A model generated the notes under the pieces. It worked only from the letters and a program-made list of their open reading frames with translations. It was not told where the DNA came from and did not search any database. Below, in pieces: positions 11,490 to 43,302 of a stretch of DNA of 64,000 bases. The translations under genes and the position numbers were made by a program. Source of the stretch: Flavobacterium eburneipallidum (GTDB lineage: Bacteria; Bacteroidota; Bacteroidia; Flavobacteriales; Flavobacteriaceae); NCBI RefSeq assembly GCF_027111355.2, contig NZ_CP114291.2, positions 3,286,001-3,350,000 of the forward strand, read 5' to 3'. Position 1 is the first letter of the stretch; each line of letters begins with the position of its first letter.

Positions 11490-11757
11490 GATTAATGCAA
11501 AAACACTATACCTTTTTGAGTCACTTCATTTAGCAATGATTTGACTCTCATATGGAAGAATTATCAATAATAATACAATAAGTATCTATTTTTTTAAATC
11601 ACCTTCATATATGGGATATTTGCTAATTTTTACACATTTTTTTTTACGAATACAAAAAATATGATAATTTATTTTTTATTATACTTCAATGTTTTATTTT
11701 TACACAACCGATTGTGTTTTAAATAAATCTTTAAAAACCTAAAAAAACAATGAAGAA
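11490..11757 (+). repeat. Duplicated promoter region, copy A
   Basis: This segment is closely similar to 14657-14955 over about 265 bp, with small insertions and deletions. Shared blocks include AACACTATACCTTTTTGA, GGAAGAATTATCAATAATAA, ATATATGGG, TTTTTACGAATACAAAA and ATTATACTTCAATGTTTTA, then the operator, and finally an ATGAAGAA at 11750. The real gene starts 75 bp further on at 11825. The region after the operator is shorter than in copy B and has no clear -7 box. Confidence 0.9.
11702..11717 (+). promoter_or_regulatory. LacI-type operator, site 1
   Basis: ACACAACCGATTGTGT is a 16-nt palindrome with two central mismatches (arms ACACAA and TTGTGT around CCGA). A central CG within A/T-flanked arms is typical of LacI-family operators. 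It lies 107 nt upstream of the 913-residue envelope protein. Confidence 0.7.
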
Positions 11758-11824
11758 GTGTTGATTAGAAGACTTCTTTTGAAAACAAATTGGCTGTAAT
11801 AAGAGTTTTTGGTACATTGAAAAT

Positions 11825-14566
11825 ATGAAAAAAACATCCTGCAAAGTTTTTACAAAAATAATAATCATCCTTTTTTGGGCTTTATTGTTATTACCAATAA
11901 ATACTAAAGCACAAGATGGAAATTTATTTGTTTCAAATGCTTCCTTTGCTGAAAAAATATACCTACAATTGGATCGAAAAATATATTCCAACAGTGATAC
12001 TATTTGGTTTAAATGCATTGTTTCAAACGCATCCGAACATACTCCTTCGGTATTGAGTGGTGTATTATATGTTGAATTAATTGGATTCAACCAAAATATT
12101 CTCCAAAAAAAATTGATTAAAATTGAAGATGGTATTGGTCAAGGCAATTTTGATTTAGATAAAAACATTCCAAAAGGCAATTACCACATTAGAGCCTACA
12201 CACAATGGAATCAAAATTTTGACAATGATTTTATTTTTGAAGAATATATTCAAGTGTTTACAAATGAAAATCAAAATAGAAACCCAATTACTTCTATTAA
12301 ACTCATCAAAGAAGAAGTTGCTAGCGATCATTTGGAAGTGCTTTTTAATCCCCAAGTTATTGATTCTCTACAAAAAAACAAACTAACAGTATTTATTACT
12401 GTCGATAATAAAAGAGATTCTTTACTCGTTAAAAAACAAAATGATAACAAATACAGTCTTGATTATAGTATTAAAAAAGAAAGTCAATTTGTTATTCTGA
12501 AAATTCAAACTGAAAACAATAAAACATTTACTAAAACAGTTGCTCTAAACAAAGATTACATCGATTTACAATTTTTTCCAGAAAGTGGACAATTAGTAAA
12601 TGGAATAAGTAGCAAAGTGGGTTTTAAAGCTGTTGATGCCAATGGAAAAGGAAAATTTATTGAAGGCGATATTGTGGATGAAAAACAAACGATACTAACT
12701 TCTTTTAAAAGTAATACCCTCGGAATGGGCAGTTTCTTTATTAATAATGCAGATTGTACTAAAAAATATTATGCTAGAGTAAAACCATCCTCCATACAAA
12801 ACCAATCAGCAATTCAATTTCCACTACCTAAAGTTGCTGCTACAGGTACTATTTTAGAGGCAACAAAACAAGGAGATAATGTAATCATCAAAGCTATGTC
12901 AAACTATATGATGAATGACAGTCTCTTTTTAAAAATTTCTTTTAGAGGAATTGAATTATATGAGAAAAAAGTAACTTTCAATCAAGGTCTTTCTAAATTA
13001 ACAATCTCAACTAGTTTAATTCCAGAAGGAATCGTTGCTTTTGCAATTTTGGATAAGAACAAAAAAACTATTGCAGAAAGACTCTATTTTAATGAAAAAC
13101 CAGAAAGTAGAATAAAGATTGCTCTTTCAACAGATAAGTCAAAATACGGAAAGCGAGGATTGACGAATCTTAATATTCAAACCACAAATACTAATGACGA
13201 ACCCATAAAAGCAAACACATCCTTGCTTGTAATCAACAAAAAAGAAATAGGGACGATGCAAAACTTACGTCAAAACATACTCTCCTATTTTCTGATAGAC
13301 TCTGAATTGAAAGGAAACATAGAGAATCCGGGGTTTTATTTTAAAAATAACACAAGTAGTTTTAATGATTTAGAAGCGCTTATACTTACGCAGGGATGGA
13401 GTAAATACAACTATTCCAAACCCTATTCAATCCTTGATATCAATCCTGAAAAAACACTAACGGTATCTGGTAGAGTCAACAATCTATTTTCAGAAAAAAA
13501 AGGCAAAAAAGATGTGCAATTAACTATGATAGCCTCTGGAAAAAATAAATCAATTTATAATCAAGTAACTGACAGTCTAGGCAAGTTTAAATTTAATTTA
13601 AATGATGAGTATGGAAAGGAAATCGATTTACTGTTTCAAACGAGCAAAAAATCAGAGCAAAAAACAAACAACACTGTTGTTTTAGATCAAAAAAAATCAC
13701 CTTTAATTTCTTTTGAATACGACAACTCTATTGAGCAAATAGACAGTATCGTTGCTCCATTTATAAACAAAAGTATCAAACAAAAAGAAATTAATGATAA
13801 ATTTAATATGCAATTTGATGGCATTCTTTTAAATGAGGTTAACATTAGTGCTAAAATGGCGCCCATTAAACAAAAAGTGACAGATAGGTTTGGAAAACCT
13901 AAAACCATTATTAGTGGCAAAGAAATTCGTTCTAAAGAAGAAAAATGGTCTTATGGATTATACAGTGTATTATTGTTTAATTTTCCTGATAAAGTTAGAA
14001 TAGAAAAAGATACTACAAACGGATATTTACAAGCCATTGTCAACAATATACAGACTCTAGTGGTTATTGATGGCGTTCCTGTTTTGTTTCGTGATTATTT
14101 ACATATTCCTAATATATCCCCAACTGAAGTAAGCAGTTTTGAAATTATTGAATACGCTAGTGGCTTTGGACAACTGTATTGTGAAGTACATAATGAACTT
14201 TCGAATTGTATTCCCCCTATGAATCCTTCATATGGTAATGTTATAGCGATATATACACATTCAGGCATAGGTCTTTCAGGGGCATTCAAACCAAAAGGAC
14301 TAACTCAAACAACAGTTCCTGCATTTGCTACACCAAAAGAATTTTATGCTCCAAAGTATGAAAATATTCGAACTGACGATTGGAAACAAGCAGACATAAG
14401 AACCATAATACACTGGCAACCGATAGTACAAACAGATGACTCAGGCAAAGCATCTACTTCTTTTTACAATACCGACAACAAAGGAGATATGACAGTAATT
14501 GTTGAAGCTATTTCAGATAAAGGAGAAATTGGTTATCAAGAACTTGATTATGAAATAAGTGATTAA
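11825..14566 (+). CDS. Macroglobulin/plug-type envelope protein
   Basis: The 913-residue product has a signal peptide (cleavage about residue 29, TKAQ). The N-terminal part (about 35-150, EKIYLQLDRKIYSNSDTIWFK) looks like an alpha-2-macroglobulin MG2 domain. Further beta-sandwich repeats follow. At about 720-800 there is a segment resembling a TonB-receptor plug (VVIDGVPV, then EIIEYASGFG). The end (WQPIVQTDDSGKASTSFYNTDN) resembles the C-terminal part of macroglobulin-like proteins. There is no outer-membrane barrel, so it is not itself a transporter. Such proteins are common in Flavobacteriia and of unknown function. The xylan-type operator upstream suggests co-regulation with the locus, perhaps for sensing or handling at the outer membrane. 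An ATG at 11750 opens only MKKC. Confidence 0.7.
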   Translation: MKKTSCKVFTKIIIILFWALLLLPINTKAQDGNLFVSNASFAEKIYLQLDRKIYSNSDTIWFKCIVSNASEHTPSVLSGVLYVELIGFNQNILQKKLIKIEDGIGQGNFDLDKNIPKGNYHIRAYTQWNQNFDNDFIFEEYIQVFTNENQNRNPITSIKLIKEEVASDHLEVLFNPQVIDSLQKNKLTVFITVDNKRDSLLVKKQNDNKYSLDYSIKKESQFVILKIQTENNKTFTKTVALNKDYIDLQFFPESGQLVNGISSKVGFKAVDANGKGKFIEGDIVDEKQTILTSFKSNTLGMGSFFINNADCTKKYYARVKPSSIQNQSAIQFPLPKVAATGTILEATKQGDNVIIKAMSNYMMNDSLFLKISFRGIELYEKKVTFNQGLSKLTISTSLIPEGIVAFAILDKNKKTIAERLYFNEKPESRIKIALSTDKSKYGKRGLTNLNIQTTNTNDEPIKANTSLLVINKKEIGTMQNLRQNILSYFLIDSELKGNIENPGFYFKNNTSSFNDLEALILTQGWSKYNYSKPYSILDINPEKTLTVSGRVNNLFSEKKGKKDVQLTMIASGKNKSIYNQVTDSLGKFKFNLNDEYGKEIDLLFQTSKKSEQKTNNTVVLDQKKSPLISFEYDNSIEQIDSIVAPFINKSIKQKEINDKFNMQFDGILLNEVNISAKMAPIKQKVTDRFGKPKTIISGKEIRSKEEKWSYGLYSVLLFNFPDKVRIEKDTTNGYLQAIVNNIQTLVVIDGVPVLFRDYLHIPNISPTEVSSFEIIEYASGFGQLYCEVHNELSNCIPPMNPSYGNVIAIYTHSGIGLSGAFKPKGLTQTTVPAFATPKEFYAPKYENIRTDDWKQADIRTIIHWQPIVQTDDSGKASTSFYNTDNKGDMTVIVEAISDKGEIGYQELDYEISD

Positions 14567-14656: not shown

Positions 14657-14955
14657 TTAATGCAAAAACACCATCGTTTTTAAAAAACACTATACCTTTT
14701 TGAATCACTTCATTTACCAATGATTTGACTCTTGTATGGAAGAATTATCAATAATAATGTAATAAGCATCTATTTTTTGAAATTACCATCATATATGGGT
14801 TATTTGCTAATTTTTACGTATTTTTTTTACGAATACAAAAAAAATATGATAATTTTTTTTTTATTATACTTCAATGTTTTACTTTTACACAACCGATTGC
14901 AGGTATAAATAAAAAAAAGTCTATTTGTAAAAATCCAAAAAAGCATAATGAAGAA
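14657..14955 (+). repeat. Duplicated promoter region, copy B
   Basis: This is the second copy of the segment at 11490-11757. It contains the operator (14887-14900) and again ends at an ATGAAGAA, here at 14948. The duplicated block therefore appears to end at an ancestral MKK start codon, with different genes joined downstream. The bases 14567-14656 before it hold nothing I can name. Confidence 0.9.
14887..14927 (+). promoter_or_regulatory. LacI-type operator site 2 and promoter of GH67 operon
   Basis: ACACAACCGATTGC (14887-14900) is the operator. Its TTG (14897-14899) can serve as the -33 element, because TCTATTTG (14920-14927, one mismatch to TAnnTTTG) follows after 20 nt. A repressor on the operator would cover the -33 region. 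Confidence 0.65.
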
Positions 14956-15043
14956 AGGATATTCTATTTATTTCGCTTTCTCATTATATGGATTTGATAC
15001 AATAAAAGACTTACAAACAAAATATGAATCGACTACCCAATAA
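14948..15043 (+). CDS. Possible 31-residue leader peptide
   Basis: An ATGAAGAAAGGA start just after the predicted transcription start opens a 31-residue frame that ends inside the first codons of the GH67 gene (overlap 15024-15043, different frame). The peptide begins MKKGYSIYFAFSLYG. It may be a remnant of the gene that once followed the duplicated promoter, or a translated leader. Nothing shows that it is expressed. Confidence 0.25.
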   Translation: MKKGYSIYFAFSLYGFDTIKDLQTKYESTTQ

Positions 15044-17192
15044 TTACATTTTTTTTCTACTGTCTTTTTTGATGGTATCTATCAATTTATCTGCACAAGC
15101 AGATTATAAATTATGGCTCCAATATGCAAAAGTCCAAAATACTAAATGGACAACTGAATATCAATCAAAAATTAAAGGAATTTTTGCCTTGGGAAATTCC
15201 GAAACCATTCAAGCTGCTACAAAGGAATTACAATTAGGACTTTCAGGTTTATTAGACACAAAAATTACAGTTCAACAAAACATTGAAGACGAAAATATTT
15301 TGATTTTGGGTTCAAAATCTTCTCTAAATGAAGAAACACTAAAAAACCTAAAAAATGAATTGAATCAAATTAATGACGAGGGCTACATCATTAAAACCAT
15401 TTCAATAAAAAACAGAAAAAAGATGATTATCGCTGGTAAAACCGATATCGGAGTTTTGTATGGAGTATATAATTTCTTAAGATTGCTTCAAACGAACAAA
15501 TCCATCGAAAATTTAAAAATTGTTGACGCACCAAAAATAAACATCCGAATTTTAAATCATTGGGACAATCTAAACGGAACAGTAGAACGTGGCTATGCAG
15601 GTTCTTCGCTTTGGAATTGGCAAAAATTACCCGATTTTATCGACCAACGCTATATAGATTATGCACGTGCCAATGCTTCGATAGGCATTAACGGAACGGT
15701 TTTAAACAATGTAAATGCCAATGCCTTAATATTAACTCCTCAATATTTAGAAAAAGTAGAAGCTTTGGCAAAAGTATTCCGACCTTATGGAATCAAAGTC
15801 TATTTGACAGCAAGATTTTCTGCTCCAATAGAAATAGGGAAACTTAAAACTGCAGACCCTTATGATGCTAATGTCAAAAATTGGTGGAAAGAAAAAGCAA
15901 AGGAAATTTACAAAAGGATTCCAGATTTTGGTGGATTTTTGGTAAAAGCCAATTCCGAAGGACAACCTGGCCCACAAAATTACAACAGAAACCACGTTGA
16001 CGGAGCCAACATGCTTGCTGATGCCGTTGCTCCTTTTGGTGGCATCGTGATGTGGAGAGCCTTTGTATATTCGGAACACGATGTAAATGATCGAGCCAAG
16101 CAAGCTTATAGCGAATTTGTTCCTTATGACGGACAATTCAGGAATAACGTGATTGTTCAGGTCAAAAATGGTGCAATAGATTTTCAACCGAGAGAACCTT
16201 TCCATCCAATATTTGGCGCAATGCCAAAAACACCTTTGATGATGGAATTCCAAATTACGCAAGAATATTTGGGTTTCAGCACACACTTGGTTTATCTACC
16301 GAAATTATATCAAGAAGTCTTGGAATCAGATACCTTTAGTAAAGGAAAAGGTTCGACAGTTGCCAAAGTAATCGATGGTTCGTTGAACAATCATAAAATT
16401 ACTGGAATAGCTGGAGTAGCAAATATTGGTAGCGACATCAACTGGACGGGACATCCTTTTGCACAAGCGAATTGGTATGGCTTTGGGCGATTGGCCTGGG
16501 ATCCTTATTTAGATTCAGAAACTATAGCCGAAGATTGGTTGCGCATGACTTTTTCTAACGATGAAAACTTTGTCAATCCTGTCAAAGAAATGATGCTACA
16601 ATCTAGAGAAGCCGTTGTCAATTACATGACGCCACTTGGTTTACATCATATAATGGACACTGGTCATCATTATGGCCCTGGTCCGTGGGTGAGCAATCTA
16701 TCAAGACCTGAATGGAACCCTATATATTATCATAAAGCCGATAAAAACGGCATTGGATTTGACCGATCTAAAACAGGAAGCAATGCCACAGCACAATATG
16801 CTCCAGAAATTGCTAAACTATTTGACGATGTCAAAACTTGTCCAGAGAAAGACTTATTATGGTTTCATCATTTGCCTTGGGATTATAAACTAAAAAATGG
16901 TCAGCCCCTTTGGAATGGAATAGCTCTCAAATACCAAGAAGGTGTTGATGAAGTAGCTTCAATGCAAACGACTTGGAATAGAATGGGTAATTATGTGGAC
17001 GAAACCAGATTCAAGGAAGTTCAAATGCTTTTGAACATTCAACACAAAGAAGCTAAATGGTGGCGGGATGCTTGTTTGCTTTATTTTCAACAATTTTCTG
17101 GAAAAGAATTGCCAAAAGGAGTTGAAAAACCAACACAAACATTAGAATATTTTGAATCCCTAAAATTTCCGTTTGCACCTGGAAATAATTAA
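15024..17192 (+). CDS. aguA: GH67 alpha-glucuronidase
   Basis: GH67 enzymes remove 4-O-methyl-glucuronic acid from the non-reducing end of xylo-oligosaccharides, complementing GH115, which acts on internal positions. The 722-residue length is typical. The acid Glu312 (NSEGQPGP) and bases Asp386 (AIDFQPRE) and Glu414 (ITQEYLG) have almost the same spacing as E292, D365, E393 of Cellvibrio GlcA67A. Other family marks are MWRAFVYSEHDVNDRAKQ and GPGPWVSN. A signal peptide ends near residue 25 (LSAQ), so it is exported, probably to the periplasm. It is the first gene of the GH67-GH10-GPH-GH43 operon. The overlapping leader frame starting at 14948 is an oddity. Confidence 0.95.
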   Translation: MNRLPNNYIFFLLSFLMVSINLSAQADYKLWLQYAKVQNTKWTTEYQSKIKGIFALGNSETIQAATKELQLGLSGLLDTKITVQQNIEDENILILGSKSSLNEETLKNLKNELNQINDEGYIIKTISIKNRKKMIIAGKTDIGVLYGVYNFLRLLQTNKSIENLKIVDAPKINIRILNHWDNLNGTVERGYAGSSLWNWQKLPDFIDQRYIDYARANASIGINGTVLNNVNANALILTPQYLEKVEALAKVFRPYGIKVYLTARFSAPIEIGKLKTADPYDANVKNWWKEKAKEIYKRIPDFGGFLVKANSEGQPGPQNYNRNHVDGANMLADAVAPFGGIVMWRAFVYSEHDVNDRAKQAYSEFVPYDGQFRNNVIVQVKNGAIDFQPREPFHPIFGAMPKTPLMMEFQITQEYLGFSTHLVYLPKLYQEVLESDTFSKGKGSTVAKVIDGSLNNHKITGIAGVANIGSDINWTGHPFAQANWYGFGRLAWDPYLDSETIAEDWLRMTFSNDENFVNPVKEMMLQSREAVVNYMTPLGLHHIMDTGHHYGPGPWVSNLSRPEWNPIYYHKADKNGIGFDRSKTGSNATAQYAPEIAKLFDDVKTCPEKDLLWFHHLPWDYKLKNGQPLWNGIALKYQEGVDEVASMQTTWNRMGNYVDETRFKEVQMLLNIQHKEAKWWRDACLLYFQQFSGKELPKGVEKPTQTLEYFESLKFPFAPGNN

Positions 17193-17214
17193 AACCTATA
17201 AATTAATTTAAAAA

Positions 17215-18336
17215 ATGAACATAGCAAAACCATTCTTATTGATGGCAACCATTCTTCTAGTGAGTAGTTGCAATTCTGTACAAAAACACACCGATGCGAC
17301 AGTCTCACTAAAAAATGCTTATAAAGATAATTTTTATATAGGAGCTGCATTGGACACCAATCAAATAAAGGAAACTGACACGATGGTGGCTAGTTTGATT
17401 GCAAAAGAATTCAACAGTATCACTCCCGAAAATTGTATGAAATCAATGTTTTTGCATCCAGAAAAAGATAAATTTGATTTCAAAATGGCAGATAAGTTTA
17501 TTGCTTTGGGAGAAAAACACAATATGTTTATCCACGGTCATACTCTAATTTGGCATAGTCAATTGGCACCTTGGTTCACTCAAATAAAAGATAGCGTGAC
17601 GATGTCGGCCGCATTAAACAATCACATTACTACTATTGTTAAGAATTACAAAGGAAGAATTGACTCTTGGGATGTTGTAAATGAAGCTTTAAATGAAGAT
17701 GGAACTTTGAGAAAAACAGTGTTTCTAGATACTTATGGGAAAGATTATTTGACATTGGCTTTTAAATTAGCGGCAAAAGCAGACCCAAAAGTCGATTTAT
17801 ACTATAACGACTACAACTTATGTAATGCAAAAAAACGTAAAGGAGCTGTTGCCTTAGTAAAAAATCTACAAAAAAATGGAGCAAAAATAGATGGTGTTGG
17901 AGAACAAGGACATTGGAACTTAATCACTCCTTCACTAGATGAAATTGAGCAAACCATACTTGATTTTTCTGCGCTTGGCGTTAAAGTTTCTTTTACAGAA
18001 TTGGACATTAGTGTTTTACCGAATCCTTGGGACGTAGTTGGAGCCGATGTAAATCAAAAATCGGAAGCCAGCGAAAAAATGAATCCATATCCTAAAAGTT
18101 TGCCAGATTCAATCCAAACTCAATTGGCAGAGCGCTATGAAGCCATTTTCAAATTATTCCTCAAACATCAAGACAAAATTGATAGAATTACGCTTTGGGG
18201 TGTTAATGACGGTCAATCCTGGCTTAATGATTGGCCAATCAAAGGGAGATCCAATTATCCTTTGCTTTTTGACCGTGAATTCAAAGCTAAAAAAGCATAC
18301 AATAACATTATGAATCTAAAAGAAATCAAGAGATAA
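17215..18336 (+). CDS. GH10 endo-beta-1,4-xylanase, lipoprotein
   Basis: This 373-residue enzyme should cut xylan or xylo-oligosaccharide backbones. It has a lipoprotein signal (LLVSSC, Cys19). The single GH10 barrel shows GHTLIWHSQLAPWF at about 108-121, acid/base Glu157 (WDVVNEAL) and nucleophile Glu262 (FTELDISVL). The length is that of a catalytic domain alone, with no carbohydrate-binding module. It follows the GH67 gene by 22 nt and precedes the GPH symporter by 56 nt, so it probably works on short oligosaccharides together with them. It is one of three GH10 genes in the window. The lipid anchor could face the periplasm or the cell surface; no export signal I can read decides this. Confidence 0.95.
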   Translation: MNIAKPFLLMATILLVSSCNSVQKHTDATVSLKNAYKDNFYIGAALDTNQIKETDTMVASLIAKEFNSITPENCMKSMFLHPEKDKFDFKMADKFIALGEKHNMFIHGHTLIWHSQLAPWFTQIKDSVTMSAALNNHITTIVKNYKGRIDSWDVVNEALNEDGTLRKTVFLDTYGKDYLTLAFKLAAKADPKVDLYYNDYNLCNAKKRKGAVALVKNLQKNGAKIDGVGEQGHWNLITPSLDEIEQTILDFSALGVKVSFTELDISVLPNPWDVVGADVNQKSEASEKMNPYPKSLPDSIQTQLAERYEAIFKLFLKHQDKIDRITLWGVNDGQSWLNDWPIKGRSNYPLLFDREFKAKKAYNNIMNLKEIKR

Positions 18337-18392
18337 AAATAATATCCTTATTTAAATTTCAAATTAAGGCTACTAATTAATATAAAAATAAA

Positions 18393-19826
18393 ATGAATTT
18401 TACTTCCCAAAAACTATCCGTAAAAGAAAAAATTGGATACAGTTTAGGTGACCTTGCTGCTAACTTGGTTTTCCAGACATTAATGACCTATCTTGCTTAT
18501 TTCTATACGGACATATACGGATTATCACCTACACACTCCTCCATAATAATGTTAGTGGTAGGACTAATTGCAGCATTTGTTTTCAACCCAATTATCGGAG
18601 CCATTGCCGATCGAACCAATTCAAGATGGGGAAAATTTCGACCTTGGATTTTATGGACAGCCGTACCGCTTGGCGTCATTGCACTTTTAGCTTTTACCAC
18701 TCCTAATTTTTCTTATCAAGGTAAAGTAATTTATGCTGTCGTTACCTATTCACTTTTGCTATTATTTTATGCTAGTAATAACTTGCCTTATTCCGCATTG
18801 AGTGGTGTCATCACAGGTGACATGTCCGAAAGAAATAGTCTTTCGTCCTATCGATTTGTGGCAGTGATGTTCGCTCAATTCTTTGTTCAAGTTTTTATGC
18901 TCGGCATCATCAAAAGTGCTGGAAATGGCGACAAATCCATTGGAATTGAAAAAGTAATGACTATTCTGGCGATCGTCGGAACCATTATGTTGCTTATTAC
19001 TTTTTTTACAACCAAAGAACGTATTATTCCTAAACCAGAACAAAAATCAAGTGTAAAAGAGGATTTAGGTGATTTGGTAAAAAACAAACCTTGGCTAATA
19101 ATGCTTACTCTTACTTTATTGGTATTTATTACACTGGCTATGAAAGGTGGTTCTTATGTGTATTATTTCGAAAACTATGTTAACAAGGAACAATTAGCCA
19201 TTTTCATCCAACCTATCTTAAATTTTCTTTTAAATATTGGAATTAATCCTTTTGGTAATGATCCCATTTCTGCTGGATTTGGATTATTTAATGCTGGTGG
19301 AATTATTTTTATGATTGTTGGAATTACGTTGTCTAAAAATTTAGCCGATAAATATGGAAAAAGAAACGTCTTTGGTTTTTTCCTATTCATCTCCACATTA
19401 TTTATCATCGCCTTTTATCTATTCTCACCAAAATCGATTGCTTTAATGTTTTTTTCACAGATTCTTCACGGATTCTTTTACGGCATCACAATTCCACTTC
19501 TTTGGGCTATGATTGCCGATGTAGCCGACTACTCGGAATGGAAAAATAACCGTCGGGCTACCGCCATTATTTTCTCTGCTATGATGGTTGGATTAAAAGC
19601 AGGTTTGAGTATTGGAGGCTCCTTGACAACATCAATTTTGGGTCATTTTGATTATGTTCCCAATTCATTGGCTCAACCAGAAAGTGCTATTAACGGAATA
19701 AAATTATTGATAAGTATCTTCCCAGCAATACCCTTTCTAATTGGAGTTGGCCTTTTGTTTTTCTATGAAATCAATAAAGAAATGGAAGTCCAAATAGAAT
19801 CTGATTTAAAAAACAGAAGAACCTAA
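18393..19826 (+). CDS. GPH-family sugar:cation symporter (xylo-oligosaccharide/xyloside)
   Basis: This 477-residue inner-membrane protein has about 12 hydrophobic segments and the signature DRTNSRWGKFRPWIL after the second one, typical of the glycoside-pentoside-hexuronide:cation symporter family (XynP, UidB, MelB group). Family members import xylosides or oligosaccharides with a cation. The neighbours, GH67 and GH10 upstream and a cytoplasmic GH43 34 nt downstream, point to uptake of short xylo-oligosaccharides. It is the only transporter gene in the window. The substrate is inferred from context. Confidence 0.92.
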   Translation: MNFTSQKLSVKEKIGYSLGDLAANLVFQTLMTYLAYFYTDIYGLSPTHSSIIMLVVGLIAAFVFNPIIGAIADRTNSRWGKFRPWILWTAVPLGVIALLAFTTPNFSYQGKVIYAVVTYSLLLLFYASNNLPYSALSGVITGDMSERNSLSSYRFVAVMFAQFFVQVFMLGIIKSAGNGDKSIGIEKVMTILAIVGTIMLLITFFTTKERIIPKPEQKSSVKEDLGDLVKNKPWLIMLTLTLLVFITLAMKGGSYVYYFENYVNKEQLAIFIQPILNFLLNIGINPFGNDPISAGFGLFNAGGIIFMIVGITLSKNLADKYGKRNVFGFFLFISTLFIIAFYLFSPKSIALMFFSQILHGFFYGITIPLLWAMIADVADYSEWKNNRRATAIIFSAMMVGLKAGLSIGGSLTTSILGHFDYVPNSLAQPESAINGIKLLISIFPAIPFLIGVGLLFFYEINKEMEVQIESDLKNRRT

Positions 19827-19859
19827 TCTATCACATTAAATATAAAATACCTCATAATT

Positions 19860-20904: not shown

Positions 20905-20945
20905 ACACAACCGATTGTATTTTTTATATATTTTTAGTATATTTA
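20905..20945 (+). promoter_or_regulatory. LacI-type operator site 3 with promoter, no gene after it
   Basis: ACACAACCGATTGT (20905-20918) begins 23 nt after the GH43 stop. Its TTG (20915-20917), a 20-nt spacer and TATATTTA (20938-20945) form a good rightward promoter of the same build as at the GH67 operon. The next coding sequence downstream is convergent. Confidence 0.6.
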
Positions 20946-20952: not shown

Positions 20953-21112
20953 AATCATTTCAATGATTGCTTAATGGTAAAATTTAAAATATTGGTAATG
21001 AAAATTATTTGAATCATTTACATTCAAAAAATATTTACCAAAACAATTTTAAATTTAGTAGTTAGTTTTTTTACACCAGAAGATCGGGAGAGTGGTTACT
21101 CCCGATTTTTTT
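20953..21112 (+). ncRNA. Candidate small RNA under the xylan operator
   Basis: From the predicted start (about 20953) to the terminator at 21083-21112 is about 160 nt without a credible gene. The longest ATG frame is 12 codons (20974-21012, MVKFKILVMKII). Operator-controlled promoter plus strong terminator is the layout of a small regulatory RNA. Small RNAs are known from Bacteroides polysaccharide loci, but this one is predicted only from the arrangement. It could also be merely the 3' end of the GH43 operon. Confidence 0.4.
21083..21112 (+). terminator. Strong rightward terminator
   Basis: ATCGGGAG pairs perfectly with CTCCCGAT around an 8-nt loop, followed by seven T. It ends the candidate small RNA and any read-through from the GH67-GH43 operon. 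Confidence 0.9.
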
Positions 21113-21115
21113 GGT

Positions 21116-24338: not shown

Positions 24339-24486
24339 TTTAATATTTTTTTACGAATAACAAAATAAATATGCTTTATAATTATATTATAATACAATTA
24401 AAAGCCAAATACTAACAAATAGATGACTGTGTGATTTCAGATTTAGCTCGGTTTTTAATTTAATAACCAGTTGGAATTACTAAAAA

Positions 24487-29094: not shown

Positions 29095-30282
<1,188 letters not shown>

Positions 30283-30363: not shown

Positions 30364-31503
<1,140 letters not shown>

Positions 31504-31561
31504 TTAATAGTACTTCTGATTTTCTTCTCTTTTATATTTATGCCTTTTATTGTTAAAAAAT

Positions 31562-32851: not shown

Positions 32852-32886
32852 ATTTTGTAATGGTTAAATTTTATTTGAATAACAAA

Positions 32887-33810: not shown

Positions 33811-33867
33811 TAAATAAAATTCATTTGGTTGGTTATAAATAGTATTTCTTTTCTAATCTTTACAAGC

Positions 33868-36747
33868 TTATTTAGCCTTCACATTTACACTTTCTATTGG
33901 CCCCAAATAACTCGGTTTTAGTCCTCCTGCATCAATCACAAATTTTTGAAAAACAATACCTGGATCAATCATCCATATTTTGAGAGTATGCTTGCCTGGC
34001 TTATCCATTTTATGCGTTGAGTTTTTTATTTTGATATGATCGCCAACCGATTTTGACCACCAATCTGCATATTCATAATCTGGTTTAACTTCACCTTCGT
34101 TCATATTAATGATTTGCGGTTGTCCCTCATCAATAGAAATAGCATATCGCAATCCGTCTTTTTTATGGAAGTCTTGAGTTGGCGATAAGTAAGTTTCGAT
34201 TGCTAAATTTCCTTCTTTGAAAACAGTAAAATCATATTCAATACTTGGTGAATTAGGACTCAAAGTTTGTCTGTTTGCCGTTACAGGCTCAACAATAATT
34301 GACGAATCCGTTCTTCCGAAATTTGGAACTACCGTCCAATGAACCTCTTTGGAGTCTGTTTTTCTAGTAAAATTTGCAGCTTCGAATGCTATTACGCCTT
34401 CATTTTCTACAAAACCTGATGCTTTTGAAAGCGTGTAGTGTATAGGAACTTTAACCACATATTCTTTTCCAGTTCCGGATATAATGATTTCGCCAATAAT
34501 ATCTTTTTTCGGTGCTTTTTCCCAATCAATACTTACATACACTTTTTCGTCAAACTGTATGGTTCCTTGTTCCTTGGAAAGCTTAATCCAATTGTCTTTT
34601 CCTTTAATGGTATAGTTTAACTTTTCCTCGCCTCGATTGATGATATCAACATAATAATTCTGGTTATTGATTGGATCAAATTGTGGCAGTTCCTCACTAA
34701 AAGCCCATTGTGCCTCCACACCAAGCCATCCCCATTGTGGTTTTTTTCCATATTCCAACAAATAGCCCAATTCAGCTGGTTTGTGAATTTGAACATAAGA
34801 AACAGCAGGCATCATATTCAATGGAGGGTGATCCCAATACGTATAACCAATATGGGTTTGTGACATCATATGGTTCCATTTTCCGTCTTTTAGTTCATGG
34901 TAGGCTTTTGCTAATTCAGCATCTTTTTCGAATAATTCTTTTACTTTATCCGCATAGTAATTTGCAGATGCTGCACCACGCTCGCCATAATATTTGTTTT
35001 TAGCTGCAGCAACATACATTTCGTTAACGTTTGCAGACATTTCAATTGGAGAAAGCACCAATTGATAAAATGCCGTTTTATATTTTTCTGCAAGCTTTCC
35101 ATAAACTTTTCTGCTCTTTTCGACCAGTGTATTGTATTCGTCAACAATTCTATCTGCTTCTCTATAATTTTCAAGGCTATAGGTATTTGGCGTTACCATT
35201 TCTGGAGTACGTCTAGCATTGTATTTTGTATAAAGTGAAAGCAGTTCTGCAATTTCATTAGTATATTCATTACCAAATTGCTGCTTTGACCAATTGGCAT
35301 AGTACTTTGGCAAATCTTCGGCTTGAATGGCATCTGGGTTCCAAGCATAATCCATAAAAAAACTGATAGGCAATTCCATAGGCTTGATATCGCCAACATT
35401 CGCTATCCATAAATTTTTCACACCGTGTTCATATGTGAGTTTCATTTGTTCCCAAACCCGCTCAATTTGGGTAGTGTTCAGCCATTTGTATGAAACCGGA
35501 GCACCCACATAATCAAAATGATAATACATACCGTATCCACCGGAACGATTTAAATCTTCTTTTTTAGGAAGATAGCGTATGTTTCCCCAGTTATCATCAC
35601 TGAATAGAATTGTTATATCATCATCTACCCGCATTCCTTTATCATAGTAATCCTGTACCTCTTTATAAATAGCCCATACTTGAGGTGTTTTTTCGGCTGG
35701 TTTGCCTGTTACCTCGGCAATAATTTCACGCTGATCTTTAATGATAGTTTTCAAAAGATCCACAGCAGTTCCTTCAGACATTCCTGCATCGCCATCGCCA
35801 CGCATTCCAATAGTAATAGCGCTTTCATAGTTTTTGTTCCGTTCAACTCCTCCTCGCCAAAAGTATTGAAGTTGCTTTTTATTGGTTTGATAATCCCAAG
35901 CACCTCCTTTGAACAACGACCATTCATTATGAGCTCGCATCATCGGTTCATGATGACTAGTTGACACAACAATTCCAAATTCATCGGCCGTTTTAGGATT
36001 CAATGGATCATCGACGTTAAACATAGTAGGCAACCACATTGAAGGCCATAAGTAGTTGGCTCTGTTTCGCAAAAGCAATTCGAATATTTTTTCATAGGTT
36101 TTGTGGTTAATACCTCCAAATTTTTCAACTGCCCAATTTCTGAATGACGGTGATTCATCGTTTATGAATATTCCACGGTATTTTACCGCTGGTCCATTCG
36201 AAACATAGTTGCATTTTTCAAGATATATTTCATCCTTTTTCACAATCGGTGCATCTGCCCACCAATACCAAGGCGAAACTCCAATTTCTTTGGAAATGCT
36301 AAAAACCCCATAAGCAGCTCCTCTACGATCACTTCCAACTATAACTAAAGCCTTTTTTACCCCAGGAAATGGGTTATCAACTGTTTGAATACTAAAACTT
36401 TCCCATTGTCCTTTAAGAGCGTCAAGGTTTATTTTCTTTTCAACAACTAATTGGTTTATCATACGATTGTTGCCAATTGTTCCAATGATAATAACATTAT
36501 TCTCCTGCAAATTATCAGCAAAAGAAACGACTGGTCGCTTACCTGAAACTTTCTCAATGTCGTCTGCAAAAAAATCGGACGCTTTTTTTACTAATATGTT
36601 CTCTGAGCTGTCGTAAAAAATAGCGGCAACATCTCTCTTTCCAACAATTGAAAAATTAGCGTTTTTTTTATCAATGGTGTTGCTTACAATTATTTGGGCA
36701 AATGATAAATAAGGCAATAATACCAGCAGTATTAAAAATCTTTTCAT
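33868..36747 (-). CDS. GH115 alpha-glucuronidase (long form)
   Basis: This 959-residue enzyme has a signal peptide to about residue 18 (LSFAQ). The core carries KYRGIFINDESPSF, GMRGDGDAGMSEGT and LFSDDNWGNIRYLP, all close to the family pattern, and the MYYHFDYVGAP segment. After the helical region it has an extra beta domain of about 100 residues (from VDIINRGEEKLNYTIKG) that resembles BACON domains and is absent from the copy at 24541. The C-terminal sandwich follows (HWTVVPNFGRTDS). It should release methyl-glucuronic acid from xylan polymer or oligomers. It is preceded by the CE6 gene by 82 nt. Confidence 0.95.
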   Translation of the reverse strand: MKRFLILLVLLPYLSFAQIIVSNTIDKKNANFSIVGKRDVAAIFYDSSENILVKKASDFFADDIEKVSGKRPVVSFADNLQENNVIIIGTIGNNRMINQLVVEKKINLDALKGQWESFSIQTVDNPFPGVKKALVIVGSDRRGAAYGVFSISKEIGVSPWYWWADAPIVKKDEIYLEKCNYVSNGPAVKYRGIFINDESPSFRNWAVEKFGGINHKTYEKIFELLLRNRANYLWPSMWLPTMFNVDDPLNPKTADEFGIVVSTSHHEPMMRAHNEWSLFKGGAWDYQTNKKQLQYFWRGGVERNKNYESAITIGMRGDGDAGMSEGTAVDLLKTIIKDQREIIAEVTGKPAEKTPQVWAIYKEVQDYYDKGMRVDDDITILFSDDNWGNIRYLPKKEDLNRSGGYGMYYHFDYVGAPVSYKWLNTTQIERVWEQMKLTYEHGVKNLWIANVGDIKPMELPISFFMDYAWNPDAIQAEDLPKYYANWSKQQFGNEYTNEIAELLSLYTKYNARRTPEMVTPNTYSLENYREADRIVDEYNTLVEKSRKVYGKLAEKYKTAFYQLVLSPIEMSANVNEMYVAAAKNKYYGERGAASANYYADKVKELFEKDAELAKAYHELKDGKWNHMMSQTHIGYTYWDHPPLNMMPAVSYVQIHKPAELGYLLEYGKKPQWGWLGVEAQWAFSEELPQFDPINNQNYYVDIINRGEEKLNYTIKGKDNWIKLSKEQGTIQFDEKVYVSIDWEKAPKKDIIGEIIISGTGKEYVVKVPIHYTLSKASGFVENEGVIAFEAANFTRKTDSKEVHWTVVPNFGRTDSSIIVEPVTANRQTLSPNSPSIEYDFTVFKEGNLAIETYLSPTQDFHKKDGLRYAISIDEGQPQIINMNEGEVKPDYEYADWWSKSVGDHIKIKNSTHKMDKPGKHTLKIWMIDPGIVFQKFVIDAGGLKPSYLGPIESVNVKAK

Positions 36748-36829
36748 TATTTATTTTTTAAAACATTTTCTAAAATTTCTCAATAAATGGTTTTATTGAT
36801 TTATTAGTAATTAACACAAACCCCCTATA

Positions 36830-37744
<915 letters not shown>

Positions 37745-37750
37745 CTATTG

Positions 37751-38986
37751 TTATTTAAATAAATCTAAATCTATCATTTCGCCCATTCTTTTATACCCCA
37801 ATTCATTTGGATGCAAAAAATCATTATCGTGCATATTGGATAAAATAGTCTTAGAGTCAGGTTCTGAAACCATTGCTTTATCAAAATCAATTACAGCATC
37901 AAAACCGCTGTTTTTATTTCGGATCCACGCATTTACAATATCTCTTGCTTCTTGTTTGAATGGAGCGTCATAAAAAGATTTTGCAAACGGCAAAATAGTA
38001 CAGCCGTATACTTTAATTCCTTTAGTATGTGCCTTTTCAATCATTACTTTATAAGCATCAATAAGTTCTTGTGCTCTAACTGGGGCATCTTCGGCTTTTC
38101 TAATTCCTCCAATATCATTTATTCCTTCGAGTAAAACCAACCATTTTACACCTTCTTGAGATAATACATCTCTATTAAAACGATCTAATGCCGTTGGTCC
38201 TAATCCGCCACGAACCACACAGTTTCCTCCAATTCCTAAATTCAAAACTCCAATATTCTCTGTACTTTTATTGGCTAACAAACGAGCTGATACTATATCG
38301 GTCCATCTATTTTGTTTATTTGTTCCTGATCCACGACCGTCAGTAATTGAATTTCCTAAACATACTATGGTCGCCGATTTTTTAGTAGCAATGACATCCA
38401 ATCCCATAATAGAATACCAATGATCTGTTTTTACTGCTCCAGCAAAATCTACATTATTTACCTGATCTCCTTGCAAAATATAAGAAGTGGTGCGGGAACC
38501 AGGATGTCCTGATGTTTTTTGAGAAGTAACTCCATAATGAATGGTAATAGCTAAAAGCTGATTGGGCTGCAATGCAAAATCAAAAGCATCTGAAAACACT
38601 TCCTGCTTCGGATTCATTGTTATACCAGCATTTCCATTGAAGCTAAGAATCTTTTGAGTTTTTCCATCAATGGTTGATCCCTCAACAACATTGGCTACAC
38701 TCACTGATTTTAAAACTGTAGCTTCATCACTAAAAATATTCGAAAAACGCAATCGCATACGCTTTCCTCCTATTGAAACTCTTATAATTTGTCGAAGAGT
38801 ATTATCCGTAAGGCCTGGAGCTGGAGGCATATTGTTTGGTTCAACTAACATCTGAGCGGTAGCCCAAGTGCCCACCCAATTTTGATTAGTTACTTTCTCG
38901 GTTGTTACTGTTTGATTGGATTTGCATCCCAAAACAAAAATGAGAAGACTAAAAAACAAAAAACATTTGATATGTTGCTTTTTCAT
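37751..38986 (-). CDS. SGNH/GDSL esterase lipoprotein
   Basis: The 411-residue product has a lipoprotein signal (FVLGC, Cys21). An N-terminal beta domain (about 35-195, VGTWATAQMLVEPNNMPP, RFSNIF) precedes the GDSL domain, with nucleophile Ser213 in CLGNSITDGRGSG, a GxND-like block (LLEGINDIGG) and the Asp/His pair in DFLHPNELGY. Proteins with this layout are widespread GDSL lipases/esterases. In this locus a deacetylase acting on xylan or its oligosaccharides is most likely, but no substrate is demonstrated. It follows the third GH115 gene by 12 nt and is surely co-transcribed with it. Confidence 0.88.
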   Translation of the reverse strand: MKKQHIKCFLFFSLLIFVLGCKSNQTVTTEKVTNQNWVGTWATAQMLVEPNNMPPAPGLTDNTLRQIIRVSIGGKRMRLRFSNIFSDEATVLKSVSVANVVEGSTIDGKTQKILSFNGNAGITMNPKQEVFSDAFDFALQPNQLLAITIHYGVTSQKTSGHPGSRTTSYILQGDQVNNVDFAGAVKTDHWYSIMGLDVIATKKSATIVCLGNSITDGRGSGTNKQNRWTDIVSARLLANKSTENIGVLNLGIGGNCVVRGGLGPTALDRFNRDVLSQEGVKWLVLLEGINDIGGIRKAEDAPVRAQELIDAYKVMIEKAHTKGIKVYGCTILPFAKSFYDAPFKQEARDIVNAWIRNKNSGFDAVIDFDKAMVSEPDSKTILSNMHDNDFLHPNELGYKRMGEMIDLDLFK

Positions 38987-38998
38987 ATTTTATATAAA

Positions 38999-41977
38999 TT
39001 ATTTTGCATTATGCTGGTTGGGTATTGGTCCAAAATAGCTCGGATAATTGTTGTCAGGATTTACCACTATTTTTTCAACCACTATTTCAGGATCGATCAT
39101 AATTACTTTCAGGGTATGAATTCCGGCTTCTTTGACATCCAATTCAAAGTCAAGCCAACGCATATTATCAAAAATCTCATTTCTGCGGAATTGTCCTGCA
39201 CCAATCAGCGCAATATTTTTATTGAGTAGTGGATAGGGTTTCAGAGCAGATGATCTGGCTAAAATTTCAGGTGTGTATTCTTTAAATTCATCGTAAAATC
39301 CTTTTCTCGCATCCAATACTTGAGGCGTTTGATTATCCAAAGCCACAGCAATTCTTAACCCGCGTTGTGGAAACACATCCTGTGTAGGAAGGATACCCAA
39401 ACAAACCGTAGTTTTTCCAGTTTTTGGCAGTAATAGTTTGTACTCCAGTGTGGCTCCATCGGTTGCTGCAGAACTCGGGGCTGTTACAGGGGATATTCCC
39501 ATATTGGCTTTGCCTTTTCCTAAATCAGGAAGGACAATCCATTTTGCATTTTTACTGGGTTTATTGGCGTTGAATTGATAGGCTGGAATGGTGAATTCCC
39601 CTGTAAAATTACCAAAAAATGGTTCTTTCACTTTTGGTATAGCTGCTTTTACAGCATTCACAGATACTGCTATAATTTCATTGTCTTTTTTGATTTCGAC
39701 AATGCCAGTTGATGTTCCTTCGGACAATTTTTCCCAATCAACATCTACCATAATTCGAGCATCTTTCTCTACTTTTCCTTTGTTGATACTTAATTTAATC
39801 CAAGGCTGATTTCCTTTTGCTTCAAACTCAAAAGAACCTGTCCCACGATTGAACACATCTATGTAATACGATTGCTTTTTGAGTATATCAAAAACAGGAA
39901 GTTGAGGCTTTTCTTGACTTCCCGGCCAGGCTGCTTCAGAACCTTCAACAGCAATTCCCATTGTAGGTTCGGCAAGTGGAGTCACTTCTTTTAATTCGGG
40001 TAATTTATTTTCTCTTGGCATTTGCCAACTGGTATAACCGATATGAATATCTGACATCATATTTTTCCATTTCCCATTAGACATCGGACCATTGTAATAA
40101 TCACTCAATTTTTTATCAAGAGCGAAAAGATCTCTTGCTCGCTGGGCATAATCGTTGGCACTTACCCTACCTTGTTTGGCGTAAAGTTGATTTTTACCCA
40201 CAGAAAGATACATTTCAGCAACTCCAGCAGAAGCCTTTGTTGGATATAGTACTAATTGATAATAAGTGTCTTTTAATTCGGGTGCAATTTTTGCTTCTAA
40301 TACTTCGGCTTTTTCTGCAACGTCTCGCCAAAGTTGGAGCATTCGATCCGCTTCATTATGATTTACATAACTAAAAATTTGAGGTGTTTGGACTTCCGCC
40401 TTTCTCAAAAGATTGTATTTAGAATATTTAGAAACAATATCGGCGATTTCTTCGGCCTGTTCTTTGCCAAAAATACCTTTAGCCCAGTTAATCGTATATT
40501 CCATTGTTTTGCTTGCAGGATAAGCATCCGGATTCCAGGCAAAGTGCATAATGAAGTCAATAGGAAGTTCTTTCGGTTTCAAATCTCCCACATTAACGAT
40601 CCAAATACGGTCAAGTCCACTTTGGTATGCCAAATTGAATTGCTCTTGAAGTTTAGGAATAGTAGTCGTATTTACCCATCGATCGTTATTGGGACCTCCA
40701 TTCATATCGATATGATAATACAATCCACTTCCGCCTTTTCTGTTTTTTTCTTTTGGAGGCGCAATGCGTCGGGTGTAGCCCCAATTATTATCACAAAACA
40801 ATAACGTAATGTCATCGGGAACATTGAAACCTGCATCATAGTATCTCTGCACTTCCGTAAAAATTGCCCATAATTGCGGATGATTGGCAGGATCGTCATT
40901 GTACACTTTTTGAATGATTTCACGTTGACTTTTTATTACATTCTCTAGAGTTTTAATATTGTCAAGATCATTTCCTTTTCCCATAGCTACATCACCATCA
41001 CCACGCATACTCATAGTAATCAGGTTGTCATAATTCTTATTACGATTAAGTCCTTCAAACCAGAATTTCTCAAGGTTGGCACTATTGGTAACAAAGTCCC
41101 AAGCACCTATTTCCTGCTTGCGTTTCGTATATTCTTTTTGCGAACGCATCATTGGTTCGTGATGGGAGGTTCCCATTACAATTCCGTATTCGTCAGCCAA
41201 AACCGGGCTCATTGGATCATCTTCGTTAAACGCGTTACCCCACATAGCTGGCCACAGGTAATTGGCTTTCAAACGCAAAAGCAATTCAAACATATTTACA
41301 TACATTTTGGAATTAACACCTCCAAATTTAGCATTAGCCCAACCCGTAAAAGAAGGCGATTCATCGTTGATAAAAATACCACGGTATTTTACTTTAGGAG
41401 ATTCCTGAACATATCGACCTGCTTTTACATATAATTGATTGCTTTTTGTAGCGGGAACGTCAGCCCAAAAATACCAGGGAGAAACGCCTATTTTTTCACA
41501 AATGTCATAGATTCCATAAATCGTTCCGCGTTTGTCGCTTCCGGCAACTACTAACTGTCCATCTACTGTTTGAATTAAAAAAGATTCCCATTTTCCTTTT
41601 ATGCTTGAAACATCAATTTTTTTAGTAGCAATTAATTCATCAATAATCCTGCTTTTACCAATGGTTCCTACAATAATTGAGCTTTTTTCAGGTTTTGTGC
41701 TTTCAACGACTGGAGAGGCAATTCCGGTTACTTTTCGAGCATCATCACCAAGATCTTTTGCAGCACGAATCACACCTTTCCAATCATTTGGATCAACATA
41801 AATTGAAGCCGATTTACCATTCGCAACAATTGTAAAAGCATTCGACTCCATATGATGTAAAACATAATTAGTCGGAGTTCTCTGGTCGCTTTTTTTAATG
41901 GATTGACCAAATGCACTTGCCACTAAAAACAATAATAGTGACAGCGAATAAAATTTTATTTTGGATTGAAGATCCAT
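38999..41977 (-). CDS. GH115 alpha-glucuronidase paralogue, divergent motif
   Basis: The 992-residue product is the longest of three GH115 proteins. Its signal peptide ends near residue 25 (SAFGQS). Family blocks are present (KYRGIFINDESPSFTGW, GTSHHEPM, SMRGDGDVAM, LLFCDNNWGY), as are the BACON-like insert (VDVFNRGTGSFEFEAKG) and a larger C-terminal sandwich. Two conserved motifs are altered compared with the other two copies: MSEGT becomes MGKGND, followed by extra residues, and DDNWGN becomes DNNWGY. If the Glu in MSEGT matters for substrate contact, this paralogue may differ in specificity. It is transcribed ahead of the GDSL and CE6 esterase genes. Confidence 0.93.
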   Translation of the reverse strand: MDLQSKIKFYSLSLLLFLVASAFGQSIKKSDQRTPTNYVLHHMESNAFTIVANGKSASIYVDPNDWKGVIRAAKDLGDDARKVTGIASPVVESTKPEKSSIIVGTIGKSRIIDELIATKKIDVSSIKGKWESFLIQTVDGQLVVAGSDKRGTIYGIYDICEKIGVSPWYFWADVPATKSNQLYVKAGRYVQESPKVKYRGIFINDESPSFTGWANAKFGGVNSKMYVNMFELLLRLKANYLWPAMWGNAFNEDDPMSPVLADEYGIVMGTSHHEPMMRSQKEYTKRKQEIGAWDFVTNSANLEKFWFEGLNRNKNYDNLITMSMRGDGDVAMGKGNDLDNIKTLENVIKSQREIIQKVYNDDPANHPQLWAIFTEVQRYYDAGFNVPDDITLLFCDNNWGYTRRIAPPKEKNRKGGSGLYYHIDMNGGPNNDRWVNTTTIPKLQEQFNLAYQSGLDRIWIVNVGDLKPKELPIDFIMHFAWNPDAYPASKTMEYTINWAKGIFGKEQAEEIADIVSKYSKYNLLRKAEVQTPQIFSYVNHNEADRMLQLWRDVAEKAEVLEAKIAPELKDTYYQLVLYPTKASAGVAEMYLSVGKNQLYAKQGRVSANDYAQRARDLFALDKKLSDYYNGPMSNGKWKNMMSDIHIGYTSWQMPRENKLPELKEVTPLAEPTMGIAVEGSEAAWPGSQEKPQLPVFDILKKQSYYIDVFNRGTGSFEFEAKGNQPWIKLSINKGKVEKDARIMVDVDWEKLSEGTSTGIVEIKKDNEIIAVSVNAVKAAIPKVKEPFFGNFTGEFTIPAYQFNANKPSKNAKWIVLPDLGKGKANMGISPVTAPSSAATDGATLEYKLLLPKTGKTTVCLGILPTQDVFPQRGLRIAVALDNQTPQVLDARKGFYDEFKEYTPEILARSSALKPYPLLNKNIALIGAGQFRRNEIFDNMRWLDFELDVKEAGIHTLKVIMIDPEIVVEKIVVNPDNNYPSYFGPIPNQHNAK

Positions 41978-42110
41978 ATAATTAATAATTTAATTTTTTT
42001 TTTTAAAATTTGTGATGATTCAGTACAAAATGTTATTGACATTATCGAAGCTGCATTCCTATTTTGGAAGTCTGAGATTATAGCTGAACAAGCATCGGGT
42101 ATTTGAATTC

Positions 42111-43271
42111 TTACTTTTCAGGAACATTCAAAACGGCTTCAAAAGCAGGTTTTGGTTTTTTATTTCTATCAAATAACAACGGATAATTCGTTCTTTTATC
42201 AATGGGGTAATCATTTTTCCAAGACATTCCGTCGTGTAATCCCCATACTGTAACACGATCTATTTTATCTCTTTTTTTATAAAAAATCTCAAATAATTGA
42301 GCATATCTATCGGCCAATGCTTTTTGTTGAGCTTCTGGCAATTCTTTTGGATAGGGATCTAAAAATGTCTTGAACTCCTCTAATTGAAACTGCGGATGCA
42401 ACATTCCCGTACCAATAATTTGTCCCTCTTTGGTTAAAGGCAATACATCTATATCTAACTCTGTAATCATTACTTTTACACCAAGAGAAGCAAAAGAATC
42501 TATGGCAGCTTCAATATACTCTGTTTTAGGATAATTAAGTCCCCAATGTCCTTGAATACCAACACCATCAATTCTTATTTTTTCTTTTTGAAGCATTCTT
42601 ACAAGACGCATAATACCATCTCTTTTTTCTGGTCGCCAAACATTAAAATCATTATAATAAAGTTCGGTGTTAGGTGCATATTCACTAGCAAACTTAAAAG
42701 CATTTTTGACTAATTCATCTCCGCTACCCACACTTTTTACCCAAGCTGTTGTACTTCTATAGGATCCGTCATTATCAATTACTTCATTCACCACATCCCA
42801 AGCTTGTACTTTCCCAGCATATCTTCCTGCAACTGTTTTGATATACTCACGCAAGCGTTCGATTTGAGCTTTAGGTGTATTAGGATTTCCATTTTTATCT
42901 TGAAAAAACCAAGCTGGAGTTTGATTGTGCCAAACTAAAGTATGTCCTATCGTAAACAAATGATTTTTTTGACCAAATGCAACATAGTCATCTGCTGGTT
43001 TAAAATTATAAATTCCCGGTTCAGGATTTATAACCTCCGCTTTCATTACATTTTCAGGTGTAATGGTATTAAATTGCTCTAAAATAATTTTTTGTGAAAC
43101 AGTATCTTTCCCTGAAGAAACTTCTTCATTAACAGCACACCCCATTAAAAAAGCATCTTTATAAGCACTTTCTAATGTCATGGCGTTTTTACTTTCATTC
43201 GTTTTTGTAGTACAACCTGCTAAAACTAAAATAATTAGAATTACACTTAAAAAAGATAGTTTTTTTTTCAT
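42111..43271 (-). CDS. GH10 endo-xylanase, lipoprotein, under operator
   Basis: The 386-residue product has a lipoprotein signal (LVLAGC, Cys20) and a single GH10 domain. The catalytic marks are GHTLVWHNQTPAWFF at about 109-123, acid/base Glu163 (WDVVNEVID) and nucleophile Glu271 (ITELDIDVL). It should be a lipid-anchored xylanase. A near-perfect operator (43285-43302) ends only 13 nt before the ATG. The 133-nt gap to the downstream GH115 gene contains no clear terminator, so read-through into the GH115-GDSL-CE6 run is possible. Confidence 0.95.
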   Translation of the reverse strand: MKKKLSFLSVILIILVLAGCTTKTNESKNAMTLESAYKDAFLMGCAVNEEVSSGKDTVSQKIILEQFNTITPENVMKAEVINPEPGIYNFKPADDYVAFGQKNHLFTIGHTLVWHNQTPAWFFQDKNGNPNTPKAQIERLREYIKTVAGRYAGKVQAWDVVNEVIDNDGSYRSTTAWVKSVGSGDELVKNAFKFASEYAPNTELYYNDFNVWRPEKRDGIMRLVRMLQKEKIRIDGVGIQGHWGLNYPKTEYIEAAIDSFASLGVKVMITELDIDVLPLTKEGQIIGTGMLHPQFQLEEFKTFLDPYPKELPEAQQKALADRYAQLFEIFYKKRDKIDRVTVWGLHDGMSWKNDYPIDKRTNYPLLFDRNKKPKPAFEAVLNVPEK

Positions 43272-43284
43272 ATTGATTTTTAAA

Positions 43285-43302
43285 TTACAACCGATTGTGT
43301 AA
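43285..43302 (-). promoter_or_regulatory. LacI-type operator, site 5
   Basis: TTACAACCGATTGTGTAA (plus strand) is an 18-nt near-palindrome starting 13 nt upstream of the GH10 start. On the minus strand TATATTTA, a one-mismatch -7 box, lies just upstream of it, so the operator would cover the transcription start rather than the -33 region. Confidence 0.65.

Follow-up and report, generated by a model that had tools for sequence, protein, structure and literature searches.

The xylan locus and its repeated near-palindrome

In Flavobacterium eburneipallidum we analyzed a 64,000-nt stretch of DNA (positions 3286001-3350000 of a single 3,845,436-bp contig; hereafter the window), which carries a xylan locus made up largely of glycoside hydrolase (GH) genes (Table 1). 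A near-palindrome, centred on CG and asymmetric at one core position, recurs across this locus, and from its sequence and surroundings we consider it very likely to be the operator of a LacI-family repressor that controls a xylan regulon. A sequence-only reading of the same DNA had placed it at 11702, 14887, 20905, 24325 and 43285, in each case between genes. Searching both strands of the window with the 16-mer ACACAACCGATTGTGT at up to three mismatches recovered all five, with 0, 3, 1, 1 and 2 mismatches, respectively, and confirmed that all are intergenic; in total there were nine strand-wise matches, whereas 100 shuffles averaged 0.54 and never exceeded five. All but 20905 stand upstream of coding units, as had also been claimed, namely the MG2-domain protein gene, GH67-GH10-MFS-GH43, GH30 and GH10. 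The operator before GH67, ACACAACCGATTGCAG, is near in form to ACGCAACCGATTGCAA, which relatives keep in front of the same gene. The five sites are thus real. The window also holds a sixth core match, inside the GH97 gene and judged to be incidental, and the locus continues beyond the window.

Table 1. Features of the xylan locus and its candidate regulators (window coordinates unless marked as genome; distances to genes are counted from the inner 12-mer)
Feature	Coordinates	Strand	Remarks
Duplicated promoter segment	11499..11727	+	Second copy 14683-14913; 232 aligned bp, 90.5% identical; before MG2 gene and GH67
Operator 1, ACACAACCGATTGTGT	11702..11717	+	MG2-domain protein gene 109 nt downstream
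MG2-domain protein gene	11825..14566	+	Pfam MG2 match 31.9 bits, just under the cut-off of 32.8
Operator 2, ACACAACCGATTGCAG	14887..14902	+	GH67 123 nt downstream
-7 box candidate TCTATTTG	14920..14927	+	One mismatch; 20 nt past operator 2 TTG
GH67-GH10-MFS_2 transporter-GH43	15024..20882	+	One strand, short gaps; treated as a single operon
Operator 3, ACACAACCGATTGTAT	20905..20920	+	22 nt past GH43 stop, between converging GH43 and GH30; no gene downstream
-7 box candidate TATATTTA	20938..20945	+	One mismatch; 20 nt past operator 3 TTG
Terminator-like hairpin and T run	21078..21111	+	Behind operator 3
GH30 gene	21509..24226	-	
-7 box TATATTTG	24301..24308	-	Exact; 19 nt past operator 4 TTG
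Operator 4, ACACAACCGATTGTTT on + strand	24325..24340	-	GH30 gene 100 nt downstream
GH115, esterases, GH8, GH10, GH43, GH97, GH31 (remaining locus in window)	24541..63587	-	
GH10 gene behind operator 5	42111..43271	-	
Operator 5, TTACAACCGATTGTGT on + strand	43285..43300	-	GH10 start codon 15 nt downstream
-7 box candidate TATATTTA	43300..43307	-	One mismatch; directly upstream of operator 5
Sixth core match	53578..53593	+	Three mismatches, exact core; within GH97 gene near its start, codons Ala-Gln-Ser-Val-Val
LacI_A	genome 3278470-3279501		343 aa; ends 6.5 kb left of window, 18 kb left of first operator
LacI_B, paralogue	genome 39312-40343		88% identical to LacI_A; DNA-binding domain identical

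Confinement to one region of the genome

A scan of the whole genome, which had been put forward as a check, showed the best matches to be intergenic and confined to xylan genes and tkt-tal. All six places with at most one mismatch to the 16-mer fall in 3297702-3382494 (85 kb), and so do all seven exact genome copies of the inner 12-mer ACAACCGATTGT, for which a rough uniform-placement estimate, seven sites in an 85-kb span, gives 8e-10. Six more places in the genome have exactly two mismatches, one of them in the 85-kb region. At up to three mismatches there are 61 strand-wise matches compared with 29 for a reversed-pattern control, so that weak matches carry little meaning.

The sites beyond the window imply that the xylan locus runs on to about genome position 3385837. 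This part includes GH95, SusC and tkt-tal, with sites 149 nt from the start of GH95, 515 and 881 nt from that of SusC and 229 nt from that of tkt-tal. Set against the usual distance of 30-140 nt, the MG2, GH67 and GH30 sites lie inside the range, whereas these four and the GH10 site lie outside it. The names tkt and xylB rest on matches that are strong, yet below the NCBIfam equivalog cut-offs, and the tal protein clears the cut-off of the fructose-6-phosphate aldolase/TalC model. A copy of the 12-mer at genome position 33790 was considered as a site in the organism's own xylose operon and rejected, as it has one mismatch and sits within the transporter gene.

Operators within promoters

For F. 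johnsoniae, promoters of the form TTTG/TANNTTTG have been described, the -33 element being weak (PMC6847099). The sequence-only reading had the TTG of the operator serving as the -33 element at three sites, and this agrees with the box that is exact at 24325 and has one mismatch at 14887 and 20905, at the spacings given in Table 1. The same geometry holds at many sites in a set of 45, nine from this genome and 36 of the 47 listed for relatives, in which close pairs are mostly represented by one member: an exact TAnnTTTG lies 29-31 nt past the start of the 12-mer (18-20 nt past the TTG) in 17 of the 45, where mononucleotide shuffles predict about 0.16, and four more have the exact box at 21, 22, 42 and 42 nt. 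The operator therefore overlaps many promoters. Of the nine sites in this genome, those at GH30 and GH95 and the distal one at SusC have the exact box, and those at GH67 and 20905 carry the one-mismatch form. Both orientations of the operator occur before genes, which is allowed if a dimer binds.

Candidate regulators

Seven LacI genes are present in the genome, and one of them, LacI_A, lies 18 kb left of the first operator; the earlier reading had suggested looking for LacI-family genes near the missing part of the locus. The orthologue of LacI_A tracks the operator genus-wide, and F. johnsoniae strain CI04 (L200) is among those that have one. LacI_A is probably the regulator, and the operator is probably shared between it and its paralogue LacI_B, whose DNA-binding domain is identical. 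The proposal of one LacI-type operator over the xylan locus is supported, with the amendments that the locus reaches past the window, two of the five sites go back to a duplication, one has no gene downstream, the sixth core match falls within a gene and two LacI paralogues share the domain. Both proteins match PF00356, PF00532 and PF13377 above cut-off, i.e. a LacI helix-turn-helix (HTH) with a periplasmic-binding-protein-like sugar sensor, and LacI_A falls in one group with the F. alvei and F. fluvii LacI proteins. In the recognition helix, the residues TSTISR are constant in 98 of 100 orthologue rows, some rows being the same gene fetched twice, and this unchanged helix is in keeping with a fixed operator core. 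Helix changes were also considered as the reason why some relatives carry ACAACCGGTTGT instead of ACAACCGATTGT, and none was found in the recognition helix of these rows. LacI_B is divergent from gntR-xylB-xylA-transporter; with its identical HTH, it adjoins a xylose operon that lacks an upstream operator here, unlike in several relatives.

Co-distribution of operator and LacI gene

The operator and the LacI gene are distributed together across Flavobacterium. In a sample of 398 genomes, this one included, we counted as holders the 86 with a LacI_A/B orthologue at E <= 1e-130, leaving 312 others. Of the 86 holders, 61 have at least three exact 12-mers, compared with 7 of the 312 other genomes (Fisher p 3e-43, a statistic inflated by shared ancestry), while any exact copy is present in 71 holders and 107 others. 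Among the 15 holders without an exact 12-mer, at least six have ACAACCGGTTGT beside LacI, and all ten that were examined have ACGCAACCGATTGCAA at the GH67 promoter. A close GH67 (at least 72% identity) is encoded by 84 of the 86 holders and none of the others, and a distant one (56% identity) by five non-holders. We looked at 20 further GH67 promoters, chosen mostly for apparent separation of LacI and GH67 or for absence of LacI, and found the core in all 15 from LacI holders and in none of the five from non-holders, these five being weak controls because they are the distant genes. One non-holder, G001, has four exact sites, and all three that were fetched lie inside open reading frames (ORFs). 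Remnants of lacI stand beside GH67 in L254 and L258, and both of these relatives retain another lacI copy elsewhere.

Operator footprints in relatives

For footprints at individual genes we used the best 80 of 115 named Flavobacterium loci around LacI, some sharing a species. The pattern ACAAYCGRTTGT has 78 sites across 46 of these loci, and 77 of the sites are intergenic. There are 64 exact copies of ACAACCGATTGT, while 200 permuted 12-mers average 0.185 and reach 10 at most. With 64 of the 78, the asymmetric core is favoured over symmetric variants (binomial p 4e-9, relatedness ignored). Counting the 10-mer CAACCGATTG up to 350 nt upstream of a gene start, in the loci that show that start, we found it before GH67 in 52 of 52, where 100 permuted 10-mers reach at most two, before the MFS transporter in 25 of 27, and before SusC1 in both of two; tal (0/1) and the GDSL genes (0/3) had none. 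It follows that the strong footprint is that of GH67 and the transporter, and that other genes are species-variable or lie downstream in operons.

In wider stretches from relatives, sites are also found before SusC, GH43, gntR-xylB-xylA and lacI/GH3, and G320 has a pair of operators in the interval that separates a GH2 gene from tkt-tal, at distances of about 0.2 and 0.6 kb to the gene starts. The cluster around GH67 can contain UxuA and an SDR enzyme, which is consistent with glucuronoxylan. Paired operators recur at certain distances: a spacing of exactly 78 bp is found in 15 named loci, with the transporter downstream in 14, and one of about 300-370 bp upstream of SusC, both here and in several other species; spacings of 113 and about 400 bp are seen too. 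DNA looping between the members of such a pair is possible.

Interpretation

From sequence we infer the binding, the direction of control and the effector, and together they are most simply put into the following scheme. A LacI dimer would bind sites built on RCAACCGATTGY, which coincide in part with the -33 region of xylan promoters or with their start, and bound LacI would block RNA polymerase by promoter occlusion. A breakdown product of xylan, most likely D-xylose or a short xylo-oligosaccharide, would release it and so allow joint expression of GH67-GH10-transporter-GH43, GH30, GH10, the MG2-domain protein, GH95, SusC/SusD and tkt-tal of the pentose-phosphate pathway.

Several findings weigh against this scheme, besides the shared ancestry and the weak controls noted above. 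LacI_A is not adjacent to the xylan locus, unrelated genes lying between it and the first operator, and no operator, i.e. no autoregulation site, was found before LacI_A or LacI_B in this genome, autoregulation being common, though not universal, in the LacI family; among the 80 named loci, 12 have a core up to 350 nt upstream of lacI. The gntR/lacI_B intergenic region, upstream of the organism's own xylose operon, was searched and has no site. There is no gene behind site 20905, and at four of the nine intergenic sites here (11702, 43285, the proximal SusC site and tkt) no -7 box stands at the predicted distance. Among the 86 holders, 25 have fewer than three exact 12-mers and 15 have none. 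In the named loci, CAACCGATTG stands upstream of lacI in just 10 of 80, of GH43 in 3 of 18 and of gntR in 1 of 13, and no copy was found upstream of GH10 (0/48), GH43c (0/6), xylA (0/6), xylB (0/6) or tkt (0/7). The set of targets is therefore variable, except for GH67, the transporter and some SusC genes.

Instead of being a local repressor, the LacI might activate its targets or regulate catabolism globally in the manner of CcpA. Members of the LacI family are able to activate, and CcpA chains are the nearest solved relatives of the protein by sequence. Yet many promoters have the operator overlapping their -33 region, and the exact sites of this genome are limited to the xylan locus and tkt-tal, so that we regard this alternative as unlikely. 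We give a poor chance to the idea that some other regulator of the xylose branch binds the site, such as the GntR-type protein of the xylB-xylA operon. All 15 LacI-holding genomes of a 120-genome set have an orthologue of that protein and the site does precede gntR in some relatives, but G025 and G044, which have the GntR orthologue without this LacI, lack any exact ACAACCGATTGT (G025 has two symmetric-variant matches), and in G057 eight exact sites surround lacI and GH67, about 2 Mb from gntR; moreover, a central CG like that of this palindrome has been published as a LacI signature (PMC4052901). That the repeats all derive from a single duplicated promoter segment, alike by descent and not by selection for a regulator, is suggested by the two copies around 11702 and 14887, part of which also recurs near 24325, and is very improbable, as the region upstream of GH30 has only short pieces in common, differently arranged, and the core before GH67 persists in every named locus scored while permuted 10-mers do not.

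Returning to repression by the conserved LacI, a broader version can be tentatively envisioned, for which we see a little less than an even chance. Here the LacI would be the main xylan switch in glucuronoxylan-degrading Flavobacterium, covering outer-membrane uptake, hydrolases, xylose and glucuronate catabolism and a pentose-phosphate step, and in some species standing above gntR, NrtR-type and hybrid two-component system (HTCS) genes. Its operator would be inherently asymmetric, with the TTG doubling as -33 element, and would come in pairs at fixed distances (78 bp before the transporter, ~300-370 bp before SusC).

Relation to known systems

By its anatomy the system is a local LacI-family sugar regulon. 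It has in common with those compiled by Ravcheev et al. in 2014 (PMC4052901) the HTH with a sugar-binding sensor, the even palindrome with central CG, which the earlier reading had called typical of LacI-family sites, and the position of sites before catabolic genes. It differs from them in its core, which is kept asymmetric (CAACCGATTG), and in the unusually large upstream distance of several sites. The 2014 compilation is limited to one Bacteroides group, and the term Flavobact is absent from its text. The Gramella flava xylan polysaccharide utilization loci are likewise flavobacterial, with an annotated lacI, xylA/xylB nearby and xylan-induced genes (PMC5306329); the available part of that paper names no operator or regulon. 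We found no description of a LacI xylan regulon in Flavobacterium in the open-licence literature.

The xylose/xylan palindrome of Caulobacter and Xanthomonas is read by a LacI-type regulator, XylR. There, too, one palindrome extends across TonB-dependent receptor and xylose genes, although the phylum is another and the motif has 20 bp (PMC1790865); the likeness is one of function. Within Bacteroidota, HTCS and the NrtR-type XylR likewise coordinate xylan and xylose genes but belong to other regulator families, xylose control in Bacteroides being assigned to the NrtR-type XylR BT0791 (PMC3878776). The sequence-only reading had considered LacI control of such a locus notable, because HTCS or AraC-type control is more often described. 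A search for Reg_prop-type HTCS gave 17 matches in five gene regions of the genome, the nearest at 3473919-3474842, about 88 kb from the last site. LacI is, however, less foreign to xylan than was implied: the xylan systems of B. ovatus, P. bryantii and X. campestris are placed under LacI-family regulators or HTCS (PMC12125979), and LacI-family control of xylan genes is mentioned in a source that presents hemicellulose control in Bacteroidota mostly as HTCS or extracytoplasmic function (ECF) sigma (PMC10766802). What the present analysis offers is a concrete operator with a named regulator and a target list, testable in Flavobacterium, and a genus-wide marker for predicting glucuronoxylan-use genes.

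The duplicated segment, site 20905 and further matches

Since 11702 and 14887 both lie within the duplicated promoter segment, they are not independent events. The 9-mer TTACGAATA at 11644, 14827 and 24351 is a second shared element, a piece of the duplicated segment that recurs near the GH30 promoter, and no further copy turned up in a search of the window and nine other 20-kb stretches of the same genome. Its copies at 11644 and 14827 are due to the promoter duplication, which accounts for the one at 24351 only in part.

At 20905-21111, operator, promoter-like box and terminator-like hairpin follow one another with no ORF of note between them, and the segment could yield a transcript of roughly 130-160 nt; with a small RNA in mind, the window was scanned against Rfam at gathering threshold, without a match. 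Several relatives have an operator about 50 nt past the GH43 stop and before gntR-xylB-xylA, an operon that is located elsewhere in this genome. That 20905 is a relic of this arrangement was considered and is unsupported, because a site is missing at this place in the nearest relatives (G320, G340, G251 and G186), and the orientation is reversed.

Among the relatives, an operator stands before or in an NrtR-type gene at L114:8828-9562 and likewise at an HTCS gene at L109:5551-9687 (both by Pfam), and at L140:9924 one is found at an ORF similar in size to those regulator genes. An identical match, GCACAATCGGTTGTGG, lies within an esterase gene in two species (L118:6689 and L125:7736).

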